The notes beneath the pieces were generated by a model. The model was not told the DNA's origin. It saw nothing but the letters and a program-made list of their open reading frames with translations, and did no database searches. From Actinomycetota bacterium (GTDB lineage Bacteria; Actinomycetota; Thermoleophilia; Miltoncostaeales; Miltoncostaeaceae), in contig VGCE01000002.1 of NCBI GenBank assembly GCA_016870155.1, positions 1-64,000 on the forward strand: a stretch of 64,000 nucleotides of DNA, given 5' to 3'. Below are positions 29,688 through 32,824 of this stretch, in pieces. Made by a program: the position numbers and the translations under genes. The stretch's first letter is position 1; every line of letters begins with the position of its first letter.

Positions 29688-30517
29688 GCGCGTTCGAGGT
29701 CGCGGGCGACGGCGTGAGCCTGCGCGGTGACGACGAGGGCGAGGGGCCGGCGATCCTCATGCTGCACGGGCTCTCGGCCACGCGGCGCTACGTGGTGCAT
29801 GGGTCAACGGCGCTCGAGCGCGACGGCTACCGGGTGATCACCTACGACGCACGGGGGCACGGGGAGTCGTCCCCCGCCCCCGCGCCCGACGACTACCGGT
29901 ACGCGCAGCTGGCCGACGACGCCCTGCGGGTGCTCGACGACCGCGGCGTGGCGCAGGCGGCGCTGGTGGGGATGTCAATGGGCGCGGCCGTGGCCGCCGC
30001 CGTGGCGCTGGGGCACCCGGATCGCGTGATGGCGCTGGTGGCCGTCACCCCGGCGCACCTCGGGGTGCCCACACGCGAGCCGGCCCGGTGGGATCGCCTG
30101 GCGGCGGGCCTGGAGGACAGCGGCCCCGACGGCTTCGTGCAGGCCTACGGCGACCCGGGGGTAGACCCTTCGAGCCTCGAGCTCATCCGCACCGTCATGC
30201 GCCAGCGCATGGCGCGCCACGCCCACCCCGATGCCGTGGCGGCCGCGCTGCGCTGCACTCCGCGCGGCGCGGCGTTCGACGGCGAGCAGGCGCTTGCCGC
30301 GATCACCTGCCCCACGCTGGTGCTGGGAAGCCGCGACCGCCTCGACCCCGAGCACCCACTGCGCACCGCCGAGACGTGGGCCGGGATCATCCCCGGCGCC
30401 GAGCTGGTGGTGGAGGACGATTCCGAGAGCCCGCTCGCGTGGCGCGGCGGCACCCTCAGCCGCGTGATCGCGGGCTTCCTCGCCGGGGCCGGCGTGACCC
30501 CCCGCGCCACGCGCTGA
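29684..30517 (+). CDS. Alpha/beta hydrolase
   Basis: A 277-residue cytoplasmic alpha/beta-hydrolase-fold protein without signal peptide. It has the oxyanion HG motif LMLHGLSATRR, DARGHGES, the nucleophile in GMSMGAAVAAA and a later acidic residue in GSRDRLDPEHP. The usual C-terminal His is not obvious at the expected place (VVEDDSESPLAW, where a G-H-x would normally lie), so the triad may be incomplete. The GTG at 29684 overlaps the recQ stop by 4 bp. Its last 62 bp overlap the 3' end of the convergent photolyase-like gene. The substrate is unknown. Confidence 0.82.
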   Translation: MSAFEVAGDGVSLRGDDEGEGPAILMLHGLSATRRYVVHGSTALERDGYRVITYDARGHGESSPAPAPDDYRYAQLADDALRVLDDRGVAQAALVGMSMGAAVAAAVALGHPDRVMALVAVTPAHLGVPTREPARWDRLAAGLEDSGPDGFVQAYGDPGVDPSSLELIRTVMRQRMARHAHPDAVAAALRCTPRGAAFDGEQALAAITCPTLVLGSRDRLDPEHPLRTAETWAGIIPGAELVVEDDSESPLAWRGGTLSRVIAGFLAGAGVTPRATR

Positions 30518-31703
30518 ACGACGCCACGCTGCCGCCACCGGGACGGCGCAGCCAGGGCCAGGGGTGCACGATCACCGGATCGATGGCACGGGCGCGCGAC
30601 CGCCAGCCCGACACCGGCGTGAACGTGGCGGCCACGGCGCGACCGGCCAGCACCTGCGCGGGATCGCCCCGGTGCACCGCCACCGGCCTGCGCGTGGCCA
30701 GGTCGGACAGGCACTCGGCGATGAAGATCAGTCGCTTGGGCGCGGGTCGCAGCCGCCCGAGGTAGCCCTCGTCGAACACGAACACCGCGGGAATCCCGGG
30801 GTGCGCCGCGAGCGCCGGGTCGTCATCGCCCAGCGACTCGGCGGTGATCCACACGGCCTCCGGCGCGCCGTGGCTCTCGGGCGCGGACGGGCCCGCGGTG
30901 GCGCCGGGGTCGGGGTCTGACCTCAGGCGGGGGTCGGGGTCGACGCGCACCGGAAGGTCGTCGGCCGGCCAGCGCTCGATGGGGCACCCCGTGCGCAGGG
31001 CGCAGCCGTCGCAGGTGCCCGGCGCGCGCCGCTCCACCTGCCCGCGCGCGAACCCGTACCTCTTGCCCGTGGCCATGCCGGCCGTCCACTGCCAGCCGAG
31101 GGCATTGGCCGCGCGCGATCCGTCGAGCAGTCGGCGGCGCATCCAGAGCTCACCGGATTCCCACGGCGCGCCGTGGCGGACCGCCCAATGCGATGCCAGC
31201 CACATGCGGGCCTGGTTGACCATCCAGCCGTCGTCCTCGAGCTCGCCCACCACCATGTCGATGCACGCCATGCGCCGGTCGATCACCTGGTCGGGCGACG
31301 ACCCGCGGTCGGGCGCCTGCAGTGCCCGCAGCGGGCGGCCGATGCCGGAACCCAGCCGCGCGTAAAGGTGCCGCGCGTACTCCTGCCACATCAGCTCATC
31401 CCGGAACTTCTCGACGTCGCGCGCGGGGCCGCCGTCAACGTGCTTCCAGGCGCGCGGCAGGGTGATGAGACCATGGCGTATCCACGGCGACAGGCCCGAC
31501 GCCCCACGGGCCTGCGGCGGCCACACCTCGTTGCGCTGCGCCGCGTACCCGCGCACGTCGAACCCATCGAGCGCGGCGTCGGCCGCCGACTGCCCGCCGC
31601 GAAAGCGCCCCGACGGCCCGTCGGGCCCCGAGGTGAGGTCGGCCAGGTGCTCGCGCACCCAGGTATCCTCGTCGCCCGCGGGCGGCACGGGCAGCAGGGT
31701 CAT
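30456..31703 (-). CDS. Photolyase/cryptochrome-like protein with inverted domain order
   Basis: A 415-residue flavoprotein of the photolyase/cryptochrome family. The FAD-binding helical domain comes first (about 30-225): FRGGQSAA, SGLSPWIRHGLI, ELMWQEYARHLY, NQARMWLASHWAV, ANALGWQWTAG. It is followed by CDGCALRTGCPIERWP (C231, C234, C240), a possible metal or Fe-S site. The antenna-like alpha/beta domain, normally N-terminal, comes last and is short (about 282-385): AVWITAESLGDDDPALAA, AVFVFDE, HRGDPAQVL. Function could be light-driven DNA repair or light sensing. The ATG at 31703 overlaps the GNAT gene stop, in the msrA-GNAT-photolyase string. The 3' end overlaps the convergent hydrolase by 62 bp. 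Confidence 0.82.
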   Translation of the reverse strand: MTLLPVPPAGDEDTWVREHLADLTSGPDGPSGRFRGGQSAADAALDGFDVRGYAAQRNEVWPPQARGASGLSPWIRHGLITLPRAWKHVDGGPARDVEKFRDELMWQEYARHLYARLGSGIGRPLRALQAPDRGSSPDQVIDRRMACIDMVVGELEDDGWMVNQARMWLASHWAVRHGAPWESGELWMRRRLLDGSRAANALGWQWTAGMATGKRYGFARGQVERRAPGTCDGCALRTGCPIERWPADDLPVRVDPDPRLRSDPDPGATAGPSAPESHGAPEAVWITAESLGDDDPALAAHPGIPAVFVFDEGYLGRLRPAPKRLIFIAECLSDLATRRPVAVHRGDPAQVLAGRAVAATFTPVSGWRSRARAIDPVIVHPWPWLRRPGGGSVASFSAWRGGSRRPRRGSPRSRG

Positions 31704-32161
31704 GGAATCGGCAGCGCCCGCTCGAACACGATGCGGTCCTCGCCCGGCCCGAGGTGGCCGACCTCAAGGGGCCCCTCGAACCCCAGCGCGCGATGGAACG
31801 CGACGGACCCCTCGCGCTGCGGCGCGGCCAGGGCGCGCATGCGCGTGCAGCCCCGCCCGGCGGCGCGATGCCCGAACTCGCGATACAGCGCGGCCCCCAC
31901 CCCCTGCCCCCTCAGCGCCGGGTCAACCGCGTGCAGGTGCACGTAGGCCAGGTGGGGCTCCGACGCGCTGATGAGGCCCAGAAGGAACCCCGCAGGCGCG
32001 CCATCGTCACGGGCGATCCATATCCCGTGCGGCCCCAGCTGGTCGAAGAACAGCCGATGCAGCGTGAGCCCCACCGGGTGGCCGAACCACTCATCGGCCA
32101 CCGCGCGCGCCGCGTCGAAGTCGGCGGCACTCAGCGGGCGCGGGGGCGCCAAGGCGTCCAC
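31700..32161 (-). CDS. GNAT-family N-acetyltransferase
   Basis: A 153-residue single-domain GNAT protein with the acetyl-CoA loop RGQGVGAALYREF and the C-terminal helix segment EGSVAFHRALGFEG. The acceptor substrate is unknown. The GTG at 32161 lies 6 bp after the msrA stop, and its stop overlaps the photolyase-like gene by 4 bp, so the three are probably co-expressed. Confidence 0.85.
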   Translation of the reverse strand: MDALAPPRPLSAADFDAARAVADEWFGHPVGLTLHRLFFDQLGPHGIWIARDDGAPAGFLLGLISASEPHLAYVHLHAVDPALRGQGVGAALYREFGHRAAGRGCTRMRALAAPQREGSVAFHRALGFEGPLEVGHLGPGEDRIVFERALPIP

Positions 32162-32167
32162 GTGCCC

Positions 32168-32824
32168 TCAGGCCATCTCGGCGATGCCCACCGGGCACGA
32201 CACCCCGGTGCCGCCCAGCCCGCAGTATCCGTTGGGGTTCTTGGCCAGGTACTGCTGGTGGTAGCCCTCGGCGTAGTAGAAGGGCCCGGCCGGGGCGATC
32301 TCGGTGGTGATGCGCCCGGCACCGGCGGCGTCGAGCGCCCCCTGGAACATCGCGCGCGATGACTCGGCCACCTGCAGCTGGCGGTCGTCCATGGCGAAGA
32401 TTGCCGAGCGGTACTGCGTGCCCACGTCGTTGCCCTGGCGAAACCCCTGCGTGGGGTCGTGACCCTCCCAGAAGGTGCGGAGCATCTCGCCGTACGAGGT
32501 GACCGCGGGATCGAACACCGCGAGCACCACCTCGGTGTGTCCCGTGCGCCCCGTGCAGACCTCCTCATACAGCGGGTTGCGCGTGAAGCCCCCGGCGTAG
32601 CCGACGGCGGTCGTCCACACGCCGGGCAACTGCCAGAACATGCGCTCGGCGCCCCAGAAGCAGCCCATCCCCATCACCACCTGCTCGTAGCCGTCGGGGA
32701 AGGGCGGCAGCAGCGGGTTGCCCAGCACCTCGTGCTCTGCCGGCACCCGGATGGTCTCGGTGCGCCCGGGAAGGGCGTCGTCCTCCGTCACCATCACCGG
32801 GTTGCCCAGTCCGAACATGCCCAT
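32168..32824 (-). CDS. msrA: Peptide methionine sulfoxide reductase MsrA
   Basis: MsrA repairs methionine-S-sulfoxide in oxidised proteins. The 218-residue protein is of the long form, with the catalytic Cys55 in GCFWGAE, GYAGG, HTEVV and the C-terminal resolving cysteines in [16 protein letters not shown] precedes the ATG at 32824. It leads a three-gene run with a GNAT acetyltransferase and a photolyase-like protein, which suggests an oxidative/light-damage theme. Confidence 0.95.

Follow-up and report, generated by a model that had tools for sequence, protein, structure and literature searches.

A photolyase-like protein of Actinomycetota with the FAD domain ahead of an antenna-type domain and four invariant cysteines

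The locus and the order of the two domains

The window analyzed here, a stretch of 64,000 nucleotides from a bacterium of the Miltoncostaeaceae (Actinomycetota; contig VGCE01000002.1 of assembly GCA_016870155.1), carries on its reverse strand a gene for a photolyase-like protein of 415 amino acids (30456..31703), which starts with an ATG at 31703 and shares its start and end with about 50 relatives. Its start overlaps by 4 bp the stop of a GNAT acetyltransferase gene lying upstream on the same strand (31700..32161; PF00583, 1.2e-15), and this is in turn preceded, again on the reverse strand, by msrA (32168..32824; TIGR00401, 3e-61). A first-pass annotation of this DNA had described the photolyase-like gene as coupled to GNAT and msrA. 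Both genes are indeed next door, but the linkage is limited to the genus: the msrA-GNAT-photolyase order recurs in genomes closely related to that of the window, and none of the remaining actinobacterial loci fetched shows it. A functional tie to GNAT and MsrA was rejected because only these close relatives have the linkage, which is thus probably no functional clue.

At its 3' end the gene runs tail to tail into a convergent alpha/beta hydrolase gene, the two overlapping by 62 bp (window 30456-30517), and the last 14 or so photolyase codons are not conserved. Residues 402-415 and the stop codon (30456..30500, reverse strand) form a tail that overlaps the 3' end of the hydrolase gene; residues 403-415 have a pLDDT below 50 in the structure model, and GC3, which is 0.91-0.94 through residue 396, falls from about 0.92 to 0.74 in the tail. 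These unconserved codons, located where the convergent gene ends, are what would speak for a frameshift, an assembly fusion or a chance ORF. The likelihood of such an artifact is nevertheless negligible, given the steady GC3 up to residue 396, the conserved SFSAWR end ahead of the tail and the approximately 50 homologues, isolate genomes among them, that have the same arrangement. The frameshift fusion that the first-pass annotation had wished to see checked is thereby discarded.

In textbook photolyases the antenna domain comes first and the FAD domain second. The reverse order proposed by the first-pass annotation for the window protein is borne out by domain search, profile alignment and structure models. 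The FAD-binding helical domain spans residues 12-255 (30939..31670, reverse strand), as delimited by PF03441, phmmer, structure and the residue table. FAD_binding_7 (PF03441) is the only Pfam match found in the window protein (residues 147-213, 3.9e-11), and Pfam detects the FAD domain in all 25 of 25 actinobacterial members. A phmmer search against solved structures placed residues 35-212 on the C-terminal half of photolyases of class I, with 1tez at 3.5e-13, and in the model of the whole protein (pLDDT 89.8, pTM 0.90) residues 1-253 find their best fold match in the FeS-BCP PhrB (Z 16.3, rmsd 3.0, 245 residues), with class I enzymes close behind. Conserved residues of this domain include E103, W106, N163, M167, W181, D194, N200 and W204. 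It is followed by a linker that is variable in the family alignment (residues 243-279; 30867..30977, reverse strand).

The second domain, an antenna-type alpha/beta domain ending in SFSAWR, occupies residues 280-401 (30501..30866, reverse strand). A Pfam search with the window protein alone returned no antenna match, and it took comparisons of profiles and structures to reveal the domain. In Deinococcus relatives PF00875 hits the corresponding region at 2.3e-4 to 1e-3, and in 3 of the 25 actinobacterial members it gives weak hits to the C-terminal part (best 0.048). When 45 C-terminal domains of the family were made into a profile and compared with one built from 17 canonical antenna domains, the two aligned over 108 columns (E 3.2e-7, probability 93). 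The score was 48.0, as against at most 19.9 for the 20 controls with shuffled columns and 22.9 for the reversed profile. The C-terminal domain was also modelled alone (139 aa, pLDDT 84.3), and in structural re-alignment the best 50 rows were all photolyase or cryptochrome N-terminal domains (Z 8-10), the top match covering 106 residues (Z 9.9, rmsd 2.4, chain residues 1-132); a Foldseek search was weaker (best E 1.5e-3) and likewise led to a photolyase. What follows residue 280 is thus an antenna fold and not the unrelated domain that the first-pass annotation had allowed for. This antenna part had also been called short, and rightly so: in canonical antenna domains the closing motif vFTPFWrAW lies mostly about 140 residues past the first-strand motif, whereas in the window family SFSAWR follows after about 111, which indicates that the domain is shortened.

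Conserved features of the actinobacterial family

A scan of one genome per species yielded 49 loci from Actinomycetota, mostly full length. The approximately 50 relatives of the window protein, mostly full length as well, are 48-89% identical to it, and their hosts comprise Thermoleophilia and Miltoncostaeales MAGs (the window's own lineage), Rhodococcus, Nocardioides, Klenkia, Quadrisphaera, Williamsia and Acidimicrobiia, with cultured Rhodococcus, Nocardioides and Klenkia included. In the 45 distinct family proteins aligned, conservation extends from the first residues to the S-F-S-A-W end. The survey of homologues suggested by the first-pass annotation thus finds the FAD-first order in about 50 proteins and, since it is kept across full-length relatives, the succession of FAD domain and second domain is a property of the family and no accident of one genome. 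A permutation within the gene that would be unique to the window genome was rejected, the order being family-wide and common to Deinococcus and NewPHL-like proteins. In a sample of the phylum the gene is present in 25 of 396 genomes.

Several minor observations concern this distribution. One member of the genus (G019) holds two copies, at G019:C89:212-1447 and G019:C109:206-1450, whose identity to the window protein is 83% and 71%. Three public MAG records titled Bifidobacterium breve (L035, L041, L065) and one titled Acidobacteria (L037) contain the gene, its products sharing 50-89% of their residues with the protein of Thermoleophilia, and the organism names of these records are probably wrong. 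A fragment at L117:119-493 resembles the C-terminal antenna domain of the family alone (EAVWLMAESLGDDDPAL...) in a relative that does not have the full gene, and is possibly a decayed copy. The phage records searched gave FAD-domain matches only, to ordinary photolyases.

Four cysteines are invariant in 45 of 45 family proteins and share alignment columns with the four [4Fe-4S] ligands of FeS-BCP. C147, within a MACID motif (31263..31265, reverse strand), is the first predicted ligand, and the other three are arranged as C231-x2-C234-x5-C240 (30984..31013, reverse strand). Among the aligned cysteines are the equivalents of PhrB C350 and C438, both mutated in published work (PMC4619345). The same C-x2-C-x5-C spacing is found in Phr4 of Synechococcus RS9916 (C254, C257 and C263, in addition to C169; PMC9426592), and PF10576 weakly matches the cysteine region of 4 of the 25 actinobacterial members. 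The possible iron-sulfur site of the first-pass annotation is supported by the three invariant, FeS-BCP-aligned cysteines, to which C147, not listed there, is added as the fourth predicted ligand.

The lesion-site residues E103, W106, N163, M167 and W206 and the tryptophans W181 and W204 are likewise present in all 45 proteins. The (6-4) repair of PhrB requires H366 and is absent from the variants H366N and H366N/L370M, which carry the CPD counterparts (PMC4619345). An N349-type Asn together with Met or Leu at the lesion site characterizes CPD-specific photolyases of any class. Asn and Met at the positions of PhrB H366 and L370 (N163 and M167) are native to the actinobacterial family, the Deinococcus forms and the NewPHL-like proteins. 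Because N163 and M167 constitute the CPD set and H366N kills the (6-4) repair of PhrB, repair of CPDs rather than of (6-4) lesions is predicted, and from its residues the window protein is most likely a CPD photolyase. The flavin pocket is peculiar. At positions of the published list of A. nidulans photolyase FAD contacts that includes T240, R287 and D382 (PMC9426592), the family shows the changes T240A, R287Q (45/45) and D382S (44/45), of which R287Q and D382S are specific to it among all groups aligned. Since this pocket is unlike that of every other aligned group, the protein may differ in how it binds FAD or tunes its redox properties, and these two changes lower the confidence in ordinary flavin chemistry.

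Published inverted photolyases and the position of the family

The first-pass annotation knew of no functional description of this arrangement, a view that does not hold. The inverted build, FAD domain first, is already known in cyanobacteria and alphaproteobacteria, since it has been published for NewPHL (2020) and for Phr4/Phr5/Phr6 (2022); the actinobacterial branch is new, the kind is not. Phr7, the NewPHL of Emmerich et al. (2020, as cited in PMC9426592), is described there as having an N-terminal FAD domain and a C-terminal Z-domain and as repairing CPDs in ssDNA, and a 2026 paper summarizes the NewPHLs in the same terms of inverted topology and CPD repair in ssDNA (PMC13274461). In Synechococcus and Cyanobium, Haney et al. 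(2022) found a photolyase, Phr6, that has its domains reversed within one chain and carries four Fe-S cysteines. They described Phr4/Phr5 as its split form and called Phr4/Phr5 a (6-4) photolyase on the basis of the cysteines and a UV-C phenotype (PMC9426592). In the literature searched, outside of which most subscription journals lie, neither a description nor an assay of any member of the actinobacterial branch was found. New here are the R287Q and D382S changes in the flavin pocket, the strong co-occurrence with FeS-BCP (22/25) and a recurrent DUF2256/DUF3253 neighbor.

The Phr6 and Phr4/Phr5 proteins, compared here by published description and through the Deinococcus relatives, resemble the window protein in their N-terminal FAD domain, C-terminal antenna domain and four Fe-S cysteines with the C-x2-C-x5-C spacing. 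They differ from it in being cyanobacterial and mostly encoded by two genes, and Phr4/Phr5 were proposed to be (6-4) enzymes while the residues of the window family predict CPD repair. Three Deinococcus plasmid proteins (L082, L089, L090), annotated as 'FAD-binding domain-containing protein' and uncharacterized, share the domain order and the four cysteines, and their C-terminal antenna aligns with that of the window family at an hhalign probability of 99.3; they are about 30-35% identical to the window protein and, in contrast to it, keep R287 and D382. On a plasmid of Deinococcus sp. QL22 (L083:2441-3732), the FAD half and the antenna half are encoded by separate genes with a 4-bp overlap, the latter gene being annotated as 'hypothetical protein', a parallel to cyanobacterial phr4/phr5. 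The window protein probably belongs to an actinobacterial branch of inverted Fe-S photolyases, and the Deinococcus forms are the bridge to the known group. These photolyases, described in cyanobacteria, are hereby extended to Actinomycetota and Deinococcus, with Rhodococcus, Nocardioides and Klenkia as tractable cultured hosts.

Proteins with the usual domain order offer further comparisons. The FeS-BCP (6-4) photolyases (A. fabrum PhrB, RsCryB), which are among the closest fold matches of the window FAD domain, have the four aligned Fe-S ligands and a KPY-type motif ahead of them. They differ by their normal order, a DPRP antenna (PF04244, which gave no match in Pfam scans of the window protein or 25 members), His366 in place of Asn163, and P/M in place of W181/W204. 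Class I CPD photolyases share the FAD fold and the equivalents of W286, N349, W367 and W390, but have the antenna first and do not have the Fe-S cysteines. In the FAD-domain tree, which left out class II and DASH, class I photolyases split from all else (100/100) and the actinobacterial family forms one clade (100/100). The cysteine-bearing proteins (actinobacterial, Deinococcus and FeS-BCP) are one side of a branch whose support, 80/85, falls short of decisive. A topology that unites all inverted proteins was not rejected (p-AU 0.388), nor was one that places the actinobacterial proteins in one clade with the Deinococcus forms, used in place of the cyanobacterial sequences (p-AU 0.302). A single origin of the inversion and one of the Fe-S site are thus neither strongly supported nor rejected, with FeS-BCP on a very long branch.

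Candidate functions and genomic partners

Of the 25 genomes that carry the inverted gene, 22 also have FeS-BCP (PF04244), versus 25 of the 371 without it (Fisher 4e-20), and the association holds within genomes having a PF00875 photolyase (Fisher 2e-11). The genomes with the inverted gene span ten family codes, but both p values overstate the association because relatedness is unmodelled. A PF00875 photolyase is present in 25 of 25 sampled genomes with the inverted gene. Two genomes have the FeS-BCP and inverted genes as same-strand tandem neighbors separated by a few bp, the order in one being the reverse of that in the other (L113:4711-7406 and L114:4632-7405). Besides the inverted protein, the window genome encodes a photolyase of class I type (G000:C11) as well as an FeS-BCP in which the set of four cysteines is complete (G000:C6, L115). 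Cry-DASH was above the cut-off in 0 of 396 genomes, which fits replacement and gives no power on mutual exclusion.

The window protein is probably an inverted Fe-S photolyase, with the FAD domain first and the antenna domain second, that splits CPDs by light. It is conceivable, yet unlikely, that it has lost DNA repair and serves as a blue-light photoreceptor or redox sensor. The family-specific R287Q and D382S in the flavin pocket, together with R350Q beside the lesion site, would suit such a role, but the lesion-site residues E103, W106, N163, M167 and W206 are invariant, the gene co-occurs with repair photolyases, and no signaling or regulatory neighbor recurs outside Rhodococcus in the loci fetched. 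Also unlikely is the proposal that the actinobacterial proteins are Fe-S photolyases of a distinct type that cooperate genetically, and perhaps physically, with the FeS-BCP (6-4) photolyase, and whose re-tuned pocket (R287Q, D382S) would give them a different substrate or redox chemistry.

That the protein repairs (6-4) lesions, as Haney et al. proposed for cyanobacterial Phr4/Phr5 and Phr6 from their Fe-S cysteines, is quite unlikely. This reading agrees with the four cysteines in the FeS-BCP ligand columns, with an invariant tyrosine (Y216) matching PhrB Y424, and with the reduced UV-C survival, but unaffected UV-B survival, after loss of phr4/phr5 (PMC9426592); it conflicts with the replacement of the essential His366 by Asn163 in 45 of 45 proteins, the PhrB H366N variant being without repair, and with the separate FeS-BCP nearly always found in the same genomes. 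Very unlikely is an ordinary NewPHL, in which the C-terminal domain would merely seal the FAD site, no Fe-S cluster would be bound and CPDs would be repaired in ssDNA. Proteobacterial NewPHL-like proteins (alphaproteobacterial L084-L087 and L091, so named by annotation-free resemblance to the published description rather than by comparison with the D. shibae protein itself) do share with the window protein the inverted topology with N-terminal FAD domain, the RMW and GK(P)Y motifs, the CPD-type residue set and the W204/W181 pair. However, each of the five aligned retains at most one of the four cysteines, and their divergent C-terminal domains cannot be aligned with that of the window family (E 0.5), which does align with true antenna domains.

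For the favored CPD photolyase, blue or near-UV light would excite reduced FAD in the N-terminal domain. The excited flavin would donate an electron to a flipped-out pyrimidine dimer in the pocket and regain it when the dimer splits; going by the residue set, the predicted substrates are cyclobutane dimers. Photoreduction would likely be relayed through W204 and W181. The predicted [4Fe-4S] cluster on C147, C231, C234 and C240 would probably have a structural role, as assumed for PhrB from its insoluble cysteine mutants (PMC4619345), and the C-terminal domain would be a trimmed antenna fold capping the FAD domain. Within its genome the enzyme probably supplements the class I photolyase and the FeS-BCP, and it perhaps acts, as NewPHL does, on dimers in ssDNA. 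With Fe-S ligands and a CPD-type active site in one protein, the traits behind the earlier (6-4) label of Phr4/Phr5 are separated, and one small protein allows two questions to be tested, namely the role of the Fe-S cluster in photolyases and antenna function at the opposite end of the chain.

A small Cys-rich protein with DUF2256 and DUF3253 is encoded close to the inverted gene in eight loci (L044:4609-4983, L056:4627-4983, L062, L067, L072, L093, L094 and L097). The literature searched contained no paper that brings DUF2256 and photolyase together. A DUF2256/DUF3253 protein is also found near one FeS-BCP (L109), and in the window genome DUF2256 is encoded by a lone ORF (G000:C3:93389-93505).
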